A DNA stretch of 35,856 bases from Acinetobacter bereziniae (GTDB taxonomy: Bacteria > Pseudomonadota > Gammaproteobacteria > Pseudomonadales > Moraxellaceae): positions 1-35,856 of the forward strand of contig WNDP01000031.1 of the NCBI GenBank assembly GCA_009912575.1. Direction: 5' to 3'. Within the stretch, counting starts at the first letter, position 1. Every line of letters starts with the position of its first letter. The notes beneath the pieces were generated by a model that was not told where the DNA came from, ran no database searches, and saw nothing but the letters and a program-made list of their open reading frames with translations. Of the stretch, positions 10,061 through 35,055 are shown one piece after another. A program made the position numbers and the translations under genes.

Positions 10061-10143
10061 GCTGATTGTTGTACGTTTTAGCTTACAGTGCTTGTTTGAT
10101 TTTACGACTTGGTCGATCTAAAAAATTTATTTATTCTACAGTC

Positions 10144-10274
10144 ATAGGGAACAGGAAGTTTCCCAGACACAAAACAATAATAATCGGTCTGAGCATCAGG
10201 AAGTGAGGTAGAACAGGAGTTTACCTAACGAACCAATACGAAAAAGCCCCGTCAGGATGATGGGGCTTTTTTTA
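10144..10274 (+). ncRNA. Repeated structured small RNA, copy A
   Basis: This stretch and 34917-35055 share the same architecture but not all bases. First comes a probable -10 box (tattct, 10132-10137). Hairpin 1 is gggaa-caggaag-tttccc (about 10148-10165). A second stem pairs cagac (10164-10168) with gtctg (10187-10191). A third stem pairs aggta with tacct around a loop containing CAGGA. A conserved ccaatacga follows, then the terminator hairpin agcccc...ggggct with seven T. Four CAGGA motifs lie at 10152, 10197, 10214 and 10253. The family looks like the multi-copy C4-like (group I) small RNAs described in Acinetobacter baumannii, from memory. Function is unknown to me. Confidence 0.75.
10245..10274 (+). 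terminator. Terminator of small RNA copy A
   Basis: agcccc and ggggct form the stem, the loop carries CAGGA, and seven T follow. Confidence 0.85.
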
Positions 10275-30096: not shown

Positions 30097-31206
30097 ATGG
30101 ATATTAATTTAGATACCTTATTAAAACCTATTTCGGATGATCATCCATGCGGAGAAGATTTATCCTTTTCCAATGAATTCCATGAAATAAAAAAGGCACG
30201 GACACATGACGACCCACTCTTGGATCAAGGTGATTGGATCTCTGAACCTAAGCAAGCGGACTGGTCGTTCGTTGCCGAAAAATCTGTTCAACTCTTAACA
30301 GATAAAACTAAGGATATCCGTTTACTGACCTGGCTCACTGAAGCTTGGACAAATCTATATGGTTTTGAAGGTTTAATTAAAGGACTAGAACTGAGCCATC
30401 GCGTCTTAGAGCAATTCTGGTTAAAGCTCCATCCTGAAATTGAAGATGATGATCTAGATCAACGTCTCGGGTTGCTACAAGGCTTCACTACACAATTACC
30501 CGGCTTGATCAAGAATGTTCCACTCATCAACATTCAACCATTCTACTCACTTGCCCAATACGAAAAATTTTTACATTTACAAAATGTGCGTCGTAAGCAA
30601 GCTGAAGATTCTGACAGTGTGGAAGCATCGCTAGAATTGGACCAATTCAACCAAGCTTTATTCAATACATCTCGGACATTCCAATACCAAAATTATCAGC
30701 AATTTCAGGAAATTTTGCAGCATTGGAATATCATTAAACAAGTGCTCGATTCTTTGATGGAGTTGGAAGCGCCAAGTTTTGCCAATGTAGATTCTCAACT
30801 TGAAAATATTCAAATGAATCTAAAAAAAATCTATAAAGCAGAATCTTTTGGCAGCAACACCAATACAGCGCCTATGGAAAATATAGATACTCAAGTTCAA
30901 ACACCAATTGCAACAGCTACAGAGTCTTATGCAGCTCCAGTTGTTCAAACACAAAGTTTTCAGCCACAACCACAAAGTCACTTACAGAACCGTGAACAGG
31001 CAATGCGTGTTTTACAAGATATTGCTGATTATTTTCAAACTAATGAACCACATAGCCCTGTAAGTTATATGCTGCAAAAAACCATTAAATGGAGTCAAAT
31101 GCCTTTACACGAATGGTTAACTCAAGTCATTAAAAATGATAATCCCCTTGATTCTATTCAAGAATTACTGGGCGTCAACCAAAATAATGAATCTTCTGAG
31201 TGGTAA
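30097..31206 (+). CDS. tssA: T6SS protein TssA (ImpA N-terminal family)
   Basis: TssA caps and organises the growing sheath or baseplate. The 369-residue protein has the ImpA_N domain (about 1-130): LLKPISDDHPCGEDLSF, then WTNLYGFEGLIKGLEL and FWLKLHPEIEDDD, all typical. A Gln/Thr-rich linker (about 265-300) leads to a C-terminal helical domain with YFQTNEPHSPVSYMLQKTIKW, the marker of short TssA proteins. It starts 17 bases after tssH and ends 6 bases before tssK. The frame is intact. Confidence 0.92.
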   Translation: MDINLDTLLKPISDDHPCGEDLSFSNEFHEIKKARTHDDPLLDQGDWISEPKQADWSFVAEKSVQLLTDKTKDIRLLTWLTEAWTNLYGFEGLIKGLELSHRVLEQFWLKLHPEIEDDDLDQRLGLLQGFTTQLPGLIKNVPLINIQPFYSLAQYEKFLHLQNVRRKQAEDSDSVEASLELDQFNQALFNTSRTFQYQNYQQFQEILQHWNIIKQVLDSLMELEAPSFANVDSQLENIQMNLKKIYKAESFGSNTNTAPMENIDTQVQTPIATATESYAAPVVQTQSFQPQPQSHLQNREQAMRVLQDIADYFQTNEPHSPVSYMLQKTIKWSQMPLHEWLTQVIKNDNPLDSIQELLGVNQNNESSEW

Positions 31207-31212
31207 TCCAAT

Positions 31213-33258
31213 ATGTTTAAAGCTGAAAAAGTTCTTTGGGGTGAAGGTTTATTTTTAAGACCACAGCATTTCCAACTACAAGATACCTATCAAGAACAAC
31301 GTTTAAATCATACCGTTCGTTCTACTATTCCCTATCCTTATGGGATTAAAAATCTTCGTTTTGACGAAACTCAATTGGGTACACATGTACTGGCTTTAGA
31401 ACACATTGATATGATTTGGCAGGATGGCGAGATTTATCAAGCACCTGCCAAAGATCTTTTGCCACAACCAATCTTGTTGGATGAATTGAATTTGCGTGGC
31501 GAAATGCTCATTTATTTAGCATTGCCGATCCTACAACCCAATAAGAAAAACATTTCAGATGATCAGGATAAGCAACCTGCGCGCTATCATTCTTATTTGA
31601 ATGAAACACATGATTTGTTTACAGATGCAACACCTGCTGAAATTACTTTTCTGAGACGTCGTACTGAATTCAAACTTTTTGATATTCAAGCTGATCCAAA
31701 TCAGGATCTAGATGGCTTTTTGTATTTAGCGATTGGAAAAATCAAACGTCATAGTTCAGGTAATTTTGAAATTGATTCAAAATATATTCCACCGATTTTA
31801 CATATTCAGTCGAATGAAACCCTATTGGCGAATTTGAAACGAACGTTAAATGTTGTTCGTGCCAAAATCAAAATGATTCAAACCAATAACCGTGAAAATG
31901 AACAAAAACTGATCGAGTTTAGATCAGGCGATATTGTTTCATTTTGGCTAGTAAACGCGCTCAATACTGCTCATGCAACATTAAACCATCTTTTACAAAA
32001 TCCTCAGATTCATCCAGAGAAATTGTTCTTTGAGTTGTTACGTTTAACTGGTTCATTACTCACCTTCTCTACCGCATATGAAGTTGAGCATTTACCACAA
32101 TATCAACACCACAACTTGCAAGATAGTTTTACTCAATTAGATAAAATCTTACGTGAACTGCTAGATACGATTATTTCAAGTCGTTATATCAGTATCGCAT
32201 TAAAAGAAATTCGTCCATCGTATTGGGTGGGTAGCTTAGAAACCGATAAAATTACTAAAGAATCAAGACTTTATATCGCAGTCTCAAGTGGCATGATGCA
32301 GACACACGAATTGATTCAAATCGTACCTTTACGTTTCAAAGTTGGTAATACGGTAGATGTAGAACAACGTGTTGTTGCAGCACTTCCTGCAATTCCGATT
32401 CATCATTTGGTCCAAATCCCAACAGCTATTCCAGTACGTTCAGGGGTGAGCTATTTTGAAATTGAGCCACACCACGAGATGTATCAGCGTATGCTTGATT
32501 CTGAAACCATCTGTATTTATGTACCAGCAGGTTTCCAAGATATCAGTATTGAGCTGATTGATCTTTTGCACGACGGTTTTTATATCGTCTTTTTATTAAG
32601 AAATCAGTACGTTCCTGAAAATGCTGATCGTTTTAAAGAGAAGATTTTAGATTTACTCAATCGCTTTGAACATCAAGCCAAAAAACTTCAATTTTCTGCG
32701 GAAGATATTCAAGACTCAAAATATGCCTATTGTGCTTTACTGGATGAAACGATTGTCACACAACAAGATCCTTCATTCTTTAACTTGCAAAATCATTGGT
32801 TGATCAGCCCCCTACAATTAACGCTTTTTGGTTCACAACTGGCGGGTTATCGTTTTTTTGAATTTTTAGAACAGATTCGTGCGCGTGGTAAAGAAAGATT
32901 AGCTTCACTTGAAGTCTATCATTATTGTCTATTACTCGGCTTTCAAGGTAAATATCGTATTGAATCTATTGAAAGTTTAAATCATCTGGTTGCCCGTGTT
33001 GGTGACGAAATTGATTATTTAAAAGGTAAAAAGGCTGCATTTTCGCCATTTGCGGCTTTACCTGATCAGATTAAAAACATTATTCATAAAGAATTACCAT
33101 TTGTTTGGATTTTAATTTTCCTGCTATTGTTTGCAGTACTTGCATTTGCAGGATTAAAAATTATGTTGAATAAAAATGAAAATGCATCACTTGCTAAATT
33201 TAACAATGTAATTGCTGCGCCATCAGAACAAGCGCATATCACGATTCTATTGCCTTGA
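31213..33258 (+). CDS. tssK: T6SS baseplate TssK fused to membrane protein TssL
   Basis: The 681-residue frame holds two T6SS proteins. Residues 1 to about 451 are TssK, which links baseplate and membrane complex: it begins EKVLWGEGLFLRPQHFQLQD and ends CIYVPAGFQDISIELI, the usual TssK tail. Residues about 452-681 are TssL (DotU-like): HDGFYIVFLLRNQYVP, YAYCALLDETIVT, FFEFLEQI, LLLGFQGKYRI and a single C-terminal membrane helix (PFVWILIFLLLFAVLAFAGLKI, quoted in part). No stop or start separates them, and the first residues of a normal TssL are missing. TssK is cytoplasmic and TssL's main domain is too, so the fusion is topologically possible. It may be a lesion or a natural fusion. Confidence 0.82.
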   Translation: MFKAEKVLWGEGLFLRPQHFQLQDTYQEQRLNHTVRSTIPYPYGIKNLRFDETQLGTHVLALEHIDMIWQDGEIYQAPAKDLLPQPILLDELNLRGEMLIYLALPILQPNKKNISDDQDKQPARYHSYLNETHDLFTDATPAEITFLRRRTEFKLFDIQADPNQDLDGFLYLAIGKIKRHSSGNFEIDSKYIPPILHIQSNETLLANLKRTLNVVRAKIKMIQTNNRENEQKLIEFRSGDIVSFWLVNALNTAHATLNHLLQNPQIHPEKLFFELLRLTGSLLTFSTAYEVEHLPQYQHHNLQDSFTQLDKILRELLDTIISSRYISIALKEIRPSYWVGSLETDKITKESRLYIAVSSGMMQTHELIQIVPLRFKVGNTVDVEQRVVAALPAIPIHHLVQIPTAIPVRSGVSYFEIEPHHEMYQRMLDSETICIYVPAGFQDISIELIDLLHDGFYIVFLLRNQYVPENADRFKEKILDLLNRFEHQAKKLQFSAEDIQDSKYAYCALLDETIVTQQDPSFFNLQNHWLISPLQLTLFGSQLAGYRFFEFLEQIRARGKERLASLEVYHYCLLLGFQGKYRIESIESLNHLVARVGDEIDYLKGKKAAFSPFAALPDQIKNIIHKELPFVWILIFLLLFAVLAFAGLKIMLNKNENASLAKFNNVIAAPSEQAHITILLP

Positions 33259-33268
33259 CGGTAAAATT

Positions 33269-33847
33269 ATGACACAAGAAAAGCAAACATCCATTCGTAT
33301 ATTACAAAGTAAGCCCGTTAAAAAAACATTGGGGAAATCATCAGTTTTTTTACTAGGCTTACTGACTGGGATCATTATTTCAGCGATCTTTTTCTTTGTT
33401 TTTATCAATCTCAATCAAGCAGAACTATCATCAGACTCAACAGAAGCAGTAACTTCTGCACAAGAGACAGATGTACAACCTCATTCAGAAGAGACTGTAG
33501 CCACTCAACATGATGAAAGTGCTGGTGTTTATAAACAACATATGAATGAAAAAGATTTTAATCAAATTTTTAAACATGAAAATAAACCAGCACCCCAACC
33601 TAGCGCTAAGGGCAGTTCTCCTTTTGAACAAATGCTCAAGCCTGAAGTGAAGCCTGCTCCTGCACTAGCATCTAAACCACCGGTTGTACCTGCAAAACCT
33701 GTAGCTGCCGCAACAGCCAAACCGAAAGTAGAGCCAAAAGTAGCTGAAAAAGAAGCTCCAGCGAAAAAGGAAGAAGCCCAAGAGATCTCGCCTGAAGCGA
33801 CAGTCAAAATGACCATTGAACGCAAAGAGATAGAAAACAAACCATGA
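33269..33847 (+). CDS. T6SS-locus single-pass membrane protein with Ala/Pro/Lys-rich region
   Basis: The 192-residue protein has one membrane segment near the N terminus (about 28-50, FLLGLLTGIIISAIFFFVFI). The rest is a low-complexity periplasmic or cytoplasmic tail rich in Ala, Pro, Lys and Glu, ending SPEATVKMTIERKEIENKP. The layout recalls FtsN-like proteins but no SPOR domain is visible. It starts 10 bases after the TssL stop and overlaps tagX by 4 bases (ATGA). It is one of the Acinetobacter T6SS-associated genes; its function is unknown. The ATG at 33269 is chosen over one at 33212 that would overlap tssL. Confidence 0.7.
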   Translation: MTQEKQTSIRILQSKPVKKTLGKSSVFLLGLLTGIIISAIFFFVFINLNQAELSSDSTEAVTSAQETDVQPHSEETVATQHDESAGVYKQHMNEKDFNQIFKHENKPAPQPSAKGSSPFEQMLKPEVKPAPALASKPPVVPAKPVAAATAKPKVEPKVAEKEAPAKKEEAQEISPEATVKMTIERKEIENKP

Positions 33848-34827
33848 TTTTGTTTGTTGTCATTTGCTTTATCTTTTTGGTCCTTGGCCTCACTTTTTTA
33901 ATGTCTTATGAGCTTAGAAATAAAACGTTAGACTATTTAAGGGCATTACTTCCGCAAAGCAAGAAAAAATTAGCTTCCGCAAAACACTTTGCTGAACAAA
34001 TGAACCAAGCTGCTTCGGCAAATCAGACCCAGACCCATTGGCATTTACAACAATGGTGGATCTTAATTGCGGGCTTTTTTCTATTGTCCAGCATTTTAGT
34101 TTTTGCCTTTACGCGACCGATTGACCCTACAAAAGTTGAGGCAGAATACTTAAGACAAACAGACCCACAAATTTATGCTTTACTTAATGGTGAGGTTTTG
34201 AGCCCTCCACCTGCTGTAGATGACAGCTTAATTGATGCAGCAATTGTACAAGCTCAAATTTTAGAAAGAGAAAACCCTCTTCCGAGTCATCAATTTCCAA
34301 GTGTTAATCCATCAGCGATTGATAATGAAGGTGTTGGTGACCAAAGAAGTAGCTTTGATACAGCAATGGTTGACCGTAAATGGGACAAAATGCATCCAAG
34401 TTATAAACAACGTTTACTCATGGTCTTTAAAATCATGAAAGAACGTCATGGTTATGAAATGGTGCTTCTGGAAGGTTATCGTAGTCCTGAGCGCCAAACA
34501 CGTCTATCAGGAAATACGGCAACCACTTTAGCCAAAGCTTATCAAAGCTATCATCAATTTGGATTAGTTGCTGATGTAGCCTTTAAACGTGATGGTAAGG
34601 TGGTGATTTCTGAACGCGATCCATGGGCTTGGAAAGGTTATCAACTATATGGTGTTGTCGCTGAATCCGTAGGTTTAACGTGGGGTGGTCGCTGGACAAG
34701 AATTCATGACTATGGCCATACTGAATTCCGAATGCCTGGACTACGTAAAAACCGTGAATCTGCTGAACGCTTAATTGCAGAAGCACAAGGTAAAGGTCTT
34801 ATGGCAAATAATATTGAGGTCAATTAA
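33844..34827 (+). CDS. tagX: T6SS peptidoglycan endopeptidase TagX
   Basis: TagX cuts peptidoglycan to let the T6SS apparatus through the wall. The 327-residue protein has two membrane segments (about 1-22 and 70-90) and a C-terminal M15-type peptidase domain (about 170-320). The zinc-site motif SYHQFGLVADV (about 234) matches SxHxxGxAxD with conservative changes, and DYGHTEF supplies the second His. LLEGYRSPERQ precedes them, as in the VanY/endolysin group. It ends the rightward operon and overlaps the upstream gene by 4 bases. The symbol rests on matching architecture and position to the Acinetobacter T6SS locus. The frame is intact. Confidence 0.88.
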   Translation: MILFVVICFIFLVLGLTFLMSYELRNKTLDYLRALLPQSKKKLASAKHFAEQMNQAASANQTQTHWHLQQWWILIAGFFLLSSILVFAFTRPIDPTKVEAEYLRQTDPQIYALLNGEVLSPPPAVDDSLIDAAIVQAQILERENPLPSHQFPSVNPSAIDNEGVGDQRSSFDTAMVDRKWDKMHPSYKQRLLMVFKIMKERHGYEMVLLEGYRSPERQTRLSGNTATTLAKAYQSYHQFGLVADVAFKRDGKVVISERDPWAWKGYQLYGVVAESVGLTWGGRWTRIHDYGHTEFRMPGLRKNRESAERLIAEAQGKGLMANNIEVN

Positions 34828-34837
34828 TGAGAATTTT

Positions 34838-34877
34838 ATTGTTGTAGAAAATTGCTTACAACAATCACAGCGATTGT
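34838..34877 (+). other. Overlapping inverted repeats after tagX
   Basis: attgttgta (34838-34846) pairs with tacaacaat (34857-34865), and acaatc (34861-34866) can instead pair with gattgt (34872-34877). The hairpins share bases and so exclude each other. No T run follows, so termination here is doubtful. Confidence 0.4.
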
Positions 34878-34916
34878 CATCTATACGATTACTGCTCAGT
34901 TTTGTATTCTATAGTT

Positions 34917-35055
34917 ATCGGGAACAGGAAGTTTCCCAGACAAAACAAGAATAACAAAGTGTCTGAGCATCAGGAATGTGAGATTCGACAGGAGTCAGAT
35001 CTAACTCACCAATACGAAGAAAACCCCATCAGGATGATGGGGTTTTCTTTTTTTA
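34917..35055 (+). ncRNA. Repeated structured small RNA, copy B
   Basis: This has the same design as copy A at 10144-10274. A tattct box at 34905-34910 precedes it. Hairpin 1 gggaa...tttccc is unchanged. The second stem pairs cagaca (34936-34941) with tgtctg (34960-34965). The third stem uses agat and atct where copy A uses aggta and tacct. The terminator stem is aacccc/ggggtt where copy A has agcccc/ggggct. These paired changes support the structure. CAGGA motifs lie at 34925, 34971, 34989 and 35030, close to the spacing in copy A. The terminator also works in reverse for the ankyrin gene. Confidence 0.75.
35022..35055. terminator. Terminator of small RNA copy B, probably bidirectional
   Basis: aacccc pairs with ggggtt around a loop with CAGGA and is followed by a T-rich run. 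On the minus strand it stands 15 bases after the ankyrin gene and is also followed by T. Confidence 0.8.

Follow-up and report, generated by a model that had tools for sequence, protein, structure and literature searches.

A multi-copy family of CAGGA-loop small RNAs in Acinetobacter, fronted by GacA-box-like palindromes and predicted to sequester CsrA

Sequence comparison points to a real small RNA in Acinetobacter that is structured, conserved and of a functional type already known, glimpsed earlier by prediction and probably by RNA-seq; to this it adds strong new evidence for control by GacA and an occurrence on plasmids that was not expected. Two copies, A and B, lie in the 35,856-nucleotide stretch of Acinetobacter bereziniae DNA analysed here (the window). 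The RNA is present in most of the sampled Acinetobacter genomes, no other sampled genus gave a convincing match, and it very probably constitutes a family of the RsmX/RsmY (CsrB) type that is turned on by GacA and sequesters CsrA. Such RNAs are already known from other bacteria; in Acinetobacter the family runs to many copies and extends to small plasmids.

Motifs and fold of the two copies in the window

Each copy carries CAGGA four times, at the positions given in the preliminary description (Table 1), with start-to-start spacings of 45, 17 and 39 bases in copy A and 46, 18 and 41 bases in copy B. Dinucleotide shuffling yields a mean of only 0.42 (A) and 0.50 (B) motifs, and four or more were reached in 2 of 2000 shuffles for either copy. 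Within the window, on either strand, four CAGGA within 130 bases occur only at copies A and B.

Both copies have stable predicted folds (z-scores of -4.89 for A and -4.31 for B, with none of 200 shuffles equally good). Motifs 1, 3 and 4 fall in predicted hairpin loops, with GGA unpaired probabilities of 0.95–1.0, and the fold bears out the earlier placement of three of the four motifs in loops, including that of the terminator. Motif 2, in a linker, is exposed only in part: the unpaired probability is 0.05–0.36 for its two G residues and 0.98–0.99 for its last A. The long A-rich loop of hairpin 2 is conserved among copies.

Table 1. Positions of predicted and observed features of copies A and B in the window
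Feature	Copy	Coordinates	Strand	Remarks
GacA-box-like palindrome	A	10070–10087	+	11/12 letters; 70 bp 5' of model start
-10-like hexamer TATTCT	A	10132–10137	+	putative; conserved block; RNA start expected at ~10140–10146
Small RNA to end of terminator hairpin	A	10140–10272	+	model match 10140–10271, 143.5 bits; fold; putative 5' end
Hairpin 1, loop AGGAA	A	10147–10163	+	CAGGA 10152–10156; fold
CAGGA motif 2, linker partly open	A	10197–10201	+	fold
Hairpin 3	A	10206–10226	+	CAGGA 10214–10218 in loop; fold
Intrinsic terminator hairpin	A	10240–10272	+	CAGGA 10253–10257 in loop; fold
GacA-box-like palindrome	B	34843–34860	+	10/12 letters; 70 bp 5' of model start
-10-like hexamer TATTCT	B	34905–34910	+	putative; conserved block
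Small RNA to end of terminator hairpin	B	34913–35050	+	model match 34913–35048, 143.2 bits; fold; putative 5' end
Hairpin 1	B	34920–34936	+	CAGGA 34925–34929; fold
CAGGA motif 2, linker partly open	B	34971–34975	+	fold
Hairpin 3	B	34981–35002	+	CAGGA 34989–34993 in loop; fold
Intrinsic terminator hairpin	B	35016–35050	+	CAGGA 35030–35034 in loop; fold

Copy A has an FMN-reductase gene on one side and an open reading frame with no Pfam match on the other. Copy B lies 3' of genes for type VI secretion and for an M15 peptidase, and faces an ankyrin-repeat gene followed by 5S rRNA. The secretion genes (ImpA_N, TssK-like and DotU) and the peptidase occupy window positions 30097–34827, directly 5' of copy B, and the TssK-like and DotU domains are fused in a single 681-aa frame. 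A tblastn search over ~194 loci found an ankyrin neighbour in 50 and an FMN reductase in 18, counts that are not independent because the loci partly overlap.

Distribution, conservation and upstream boxes

The preliminary description had called this a two-copy RNA and had suggested a covariance search of the genus. A covariance model (R1) built from 39 copies detects the RNA in the majority of the Acinetobacter genomes sampled and upholds its multi-copy character; the number two was too low, since the model finds five copies in the A. bereziniae source genome and up to 15 matches in a genome (G246), match counts at E≤0.01 that may include terminator-only matches. With blastn, copy B matched 131 of 150 Acinetobacter genomes at E≤0.001, although absence by this measure is misleading because 16 of the 19 blastn-negative genomes matched the model at E≤0.01 (G026 and G050 only at E 0.007–0.008). 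The model matched 20 of 23 chosen Acinetobacter genomes at E≤0.01, and 74 of 199 genomes in a family-wide sample, 63 of these being Acinetobacter by the table count; the Acinetobacter genomes listed there with no match are G149, G050 and G077. Searching named genomes for the motifs yielded 99 stretches, and all 80 of the titles listed among them are Acinetobacter. Copies are clustered in A. nosocomialis (three in 8 kb), A. seifertii (three), A. lactucae (four), A. pittii (two) and A. baylyi (two).

Weak model matches outside the genus fell in 11 genomes of three genera (E 2e-5 to 0.009; 10 of the 11 matched again at E≤0.05). The best three alignments among them pair mainly at the terminator and lack CAGGA, and the other-genus matches are therefore not counted as members of the family.

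Conservation was assessed on 114 distinct copies, which include those used to build the model: from 144 model matches we kept the 120 scoring at least 40 bits and removed six duplicates, the 24 dropped matches being mostly antisense terminator matches together with two (L104 and L105) at ~31 bits. At least three CAGGA are present in 102 of the 114, in register among copies A and B and their relatives, and they lie mainly in loops: GGA is mostly unpaired (probability above one half) at 77% of 440 CAGGA sites, the figure for 2125 other G/C-led triplets being 20%. In a few copies (L129 in G100:C8, L132/L284 in G076:C18, and L133 in G076:C1) CATGA replaces CAGGA while the upstream box is kept; these divergent members may have changed function.

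Pairing in the stems is well preserved. With 28 pairs scored over 39 copies, pairing is kept in 98.4% of cells, compared with 90.7% after shuffling and ~50% when the partner is slid by one column; the RNAalifold hairpin 1 used for model R1 looks shifted, and these counts use a corrected, hand-chosen pairing. The paired stem changes noted between copies A and B are real, in that 90 cells are changed on both sides of a stem against 30.6 in shuffles. Other measures do not rise above shuffles, neither the count of pairs that show a double change (9 against 7.6, reached by 69 of 500 shuffles) nor that of further pair types (26 against 26.3, reached by 384 of 500).

The GacA box has the consensus TGTAAG-N6-CTTACA. 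A match of at least 9 of 12 letters stands 68–74 bp before the model start in 109 of the 114 distinct copies, with 12 letters in six copies, 11 in 54, 10 in 40 and nine in nine; the other five score eight or fewer. Matches of at least 10 letters precede 100 of the 114, compared with 34 of 2959 equally sized flank windows, which may themselves hold boxes of neighbouring copies in arrays. The letters most strongly conserved across 108 distinct upstream regions are TGTA(C/A)G and C..ACA; scattered linker positions follow, and a conserved -10-like block lies ~62 bases from the box start. We also compared pairs among the 109 copies with at least nine letters. In the 2755 of 5778 pairs whose linker is less than 40% identical, the half-sites are 85% identical and the spacer 43.5%, whereas the linker, whose figure is low by the choice of pairs, is 33.5% identical and the outer flank 32.3%. 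As the half-sites are retained where the linker has diverged, we take the box to be under selection rather than merely inherited.

Predicted function and relation to known RNAs

In the mechanism that we propose, GacA would bind the palindrome ~70 bp upstream and switch on the promoter, and the ~130-nt RNA would end at the terminator that it encodes. The CAGGA loops would then bind CsrA and keep it off mRNAs, a titration that would release the CsrA targets. A CsrA/RsmA sponge had been proposed in the preliminary description, and sequence evidence gives that proposal good support, in the form of the conserved CAGGA loops, the GacA-box promoters and the presence of the protein partners. A single copy of csrA is found in each of 60 sampled Acinetobacter genomes, and the CsrA of the source genome has L4 and R44, which we take to be RNA-contact residues. 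A GacA/UvrY homologue is present in 149 of 150 genomes at ~261–274 bits, although scores are below the model cut-off of 280 in all 150, and the source genome encodes a GacS-like kinase that scores 571.5 bits, below the cut-off of 890.

One genome, G116, is without gacA (best match 26% identity), yet it has five model matches (L116–L120), two of them with 12/12 boxes; this may reflect recent loss of gacA or an assembly gap. Conversely, G077, G050 and G149 have gacA while a family copy is absent or doubtful. Loss of the RNA was thus not found to track loss of gacA. The Gac/Rsm picture is not uniform, because the CATGA members keep the box and G116 has boxes but no gacA. These two departures, together with low Rfam RsmY scores, the partly open motif 2 and the GacA and GacS scores below their cut-offs, stand against the CsrA sponge.

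The RNAs RsmX, RsmY and RsmZ of Pseudomonas and CsrB and CsrC of Escherichia coli have CAGGA-type repeats and a GacA/UvrY-type box upstream. The Acinetobacter RNA resembles them in its several short-stem GGA loops, its own terminator and its upstream box, but differs in that it has only four motifs in ~130 nt, is far more numerous and also occurs on plasmids. It falls below the gathering score of the Rfam RsmY, RsmZ and CsrB models; for RsmY (RF00195; gathering score 57 bits) copy B scores 18.5 bits (E 0.59), the C81 copy scores 20.1 bits (E 0.21), and copy A gives no match. GGA repeats are described as a hallmark of such RNAs in PMC11882849.

Within the genus, two RsmA-regulating sRNAs of 119 and 139 nt have been predicted in A. 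baylyi ADP1, at ACIAD0018/0019 (25035–24917) and ACIAD2750/2751 (2690560–2690698), by an approach described as adding to an earlier prediction, its reference 12 (PMC5568370). From the reference list of PMC12442408 that reference is Kulkarni 2006; on the strength of the same citation, the latter paper depicts a CsrB-like RNA in A. baylyi, and it reports csrA to be essential there. The ADP1 sRNAs share the genus and the predicted role of the family described here. One family copy (L048), ~23 kb into its contig on the minus strand, is flanked by an FMN-reductase gene and an ankyrin gene, one on either side, a layout compatible with that published for ADP1 at 25 kb (-> <- <-; PMC5568370). The A. 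baylyi type strain (G122) has eight model matches, the last at E 0.009; the possible connection with ADP1 rests on the layout of L048, because four type-strain copies (L279, L280, L207 and L218) have neither an FMN-reductase nor an ankyrin neighbour.

In A. baumannii AB5075, RNA-seq identified four Group 3 sRNAs of 128–147 nt (ABUWs005, ABUWs061, ABUWs081 and ABUWs083), and that report assigns them no function (PMC5320573). By published description, their sizes, strands and most spacings agree with those of our family. ABUWs081 and ABUWs083 are 97,824 bp apart and, in this comparison of positions, family copies in G008 are separated by 97,838 bp; the circular distance to ABUWs005 is compatible, while the counterpart of ABUWs061 is a weak 32.9-bit match whose spacing is off by ~55 kb. 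The family and the Group 3 sRNAs are likely the same, and it is from this likely identity that we take the family to be transcribed. The sponge reading in turn offers a candidate function for the Group 3 sRNAs.

Several other explanations were weighed. The CATGA members that keep the box (L129, L132 and L133), and the conserved A-rich loop of hairpin 2, which could pair, would also suit a GacA-controlled base-pairing sRNA that acts on mRNAs, for example with Hfq, and for which CsrA binding is secondary or absent. We regard this as improbable, given the retention of CAGGA loops in 102 of 114 copies; moreover, among the terms searched in the accessible text of a 2025 Hfq RIL-seq paper, 'sponge' occurs but CAGGA, GGA motif and GacA do not. 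A Shine-Dalgarno (SD) decoy, also raised in the preliminary description, would act by binding 16S rRNA at its anti-SD end; this is very unlikely and finds no support: AGGA does resemble part of the SD sequence, but only motif 3 continues to AGGAG, the base after CAGGA in the other three is A, U or C, GGAGG occurs in none of the four, and the GacA boxes point instead to the Csr system. A dispersed DNA repeat or mobile element with incidental motifs would account for as many as 15 model matches per genome, for tandem arrays and for plasmid copies, but we give it scant credence in view of the excess of two-sided stem changes (90 cells against 30.6), the box half-sites kept while the linker diverges, and the ankyrin-repeat neighbour of copy B that recurs beside 50 loci.

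Identity with C4-like RNAs, suggested in the preliminary description, can practically be dismissed: the Group 1 sRNAs, a 21-member C4-like group, are homologues of the C4 RNA of phages P1 and P7 that are cut at a GGW motif (Weiss 2016, PMC5320573), and like the family they are small, structured, multi-copy Acinetobacter RNAs, but they differ from it in size and processing, Group 3 being the better fit in size, strand and spacing, and the family has its own terminator and promoter box and gave no Rfam C4 covariance match at gathering score in the window or at E≤10 in four loci (L001, L003, L004 and L008), grounds on which C4 antisense RNA was rejected.

As far as we have searched, the genus-wide scale of this putative CsrA-sequestering family, its GacA boxes and its carriage on plasmids are new. 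In a literature search that left most subscription papers outside its reach, we found neither work that joins the RNA family to GacA boxes or plasmids nor experimental proof of a CsrA antagonist in Acinetobacter.

A second RNA and the plasmid copies

A genome search for the box pattern alone (TGTAMG-N6-CKTACA), blind to the RNA, gave 32 sites in seven genomes, compared with three for the reversed pattern. It recovered family copies together with a second RNA of ~170–190 nt (L312:470–660, L298 and L306), which is present in 52 of 60 Acinetobacter genomes, at one place in each (G000:C13:30613–30778 in the source genome). In all 31 copies examined a box of at least 10/12 letters stands at 69 bp, and 6–10 GGA occur in 185 bases. 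Its fold is not outstanding (z -1.9), and four loci scanned gave no Rfam match at E≤1. This second RNA is unrelated to the four-motif family and is probably the core CsrB/RsmZ-like RNA of Acinetobacter; that the box by itself leads to another GGA-rich RNA counts in favour of the GacA–CsrA reading. The genus would then have two kinds of candidate antagonist, each behind a GacA box, namely the multi-copy four-motif family and a core RNA with 6–10 GGA, and CsrA antagonism in Acinetobacter therefore becomes directly testable.

Boxes also precede other GGA-bearing stretches that are unmatched by the family model, L300 (six GGA) and L307 (five) in G077, L294 (three) in G149 and L310 (three; G000:C317:19644); these are possibly third kinds of RNA or short relatives. 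Not every box of this pattern fronts a GGA-rich RNA, because nine (L295, L297, L299, L301, L305, L308, L311, L313 and L314) have at most four GGA and at most one CAGGA behind them on either side.

The RNA matched 138 plasmid records, all from Acinetobacter. Among the 60 of these that were listed, 57 are under 540 kb and three (NZ_CP077849.1, NZ_CP104448.1 and NZ_CP064203.1) are of 3.66–4.09 Mb and look like Acinetobacter chromosomes within the plasmid collection. We examined seven small plasmids (5.8–22.9 kb, each with repM) and three short contigs (L282–L284), and in all ten a GacA box of 9–11/12 letters stands at 68–71 bp.

Sites for pdif recombination were scored against the 22-letter consensus. 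A pdif-like site (19–21/22 letters) in constant orientation starts 324–337 bp before the RNA in nine of the ten (L056, L173–L178, L282 and L284), with none there in L283. The stretch from site to RNA is 65–87% identical among the nine cassettes, compared with 56–61% for pairs with L283. Sites of the pdif type were also present in 18 of 99 other RNA loci, chromosomal and plasmid pooled; the count was 56 sites in 99 loci (768,142 bases) and none in four shuffled plasmids. In L177 the RNA lies, with no annotated gene, between two inverted pdif-like sites 463 bp apart, and in L056, L174 and L175 it shares its interval with toxin-antitoxin genes (RelE/HTH, NadS/RelE and VapBC). L175, the 22.9-kb pAS435-2 (CP119231.1), seems to consist of three 7.6-kb plasmid units joined head to tail, with one RNA copy per unit.

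By these alignments the plasmids share a pdif–RNA cassette, the function of which is predicted. We lean, by a narrow measure, towards the view that they carry a mobile CsrA decoy, in which a GacA-driven sponge RNA 324–337 bp from pdif, often beside toxin-antitoxin genes, could be shuffled between plasmids by XerC/D. Decoys would be added in proportion to plasmid copy number and would tilt the Csr balance of the host, a form of plasmid-to-chromosome crosstalk through an RNA sponge, while chromosomes would have amplified this RNA as well, at some sites as far as tandem arrays. Carriage on plasmids suggests that RNA decoys may give mobile DNA an input into the global post-transcriptional control of the host. 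A parallel is RsmQ, a CsrA/RsmA protein that a plasmid encodes in Pseudomonas (PMC9928087), in that in both cases a plasmid would reach into the host Csr/Rsm system; RsmQ is a protein, whereas the Acinetobacter plasmids would carry an opposing RNA.

A phage origin was considered and rejected. Four records labelled 'Acinetobacter phage MD-2021a' match the RNA, and the two examined, CAKLQF020000013.1 and CAKLQF020000016.1 (L058 and L059), carry ordinary chromosomal genes, among them tRNA-Thr, aconitase and Vgr genes, and look mislabelled.
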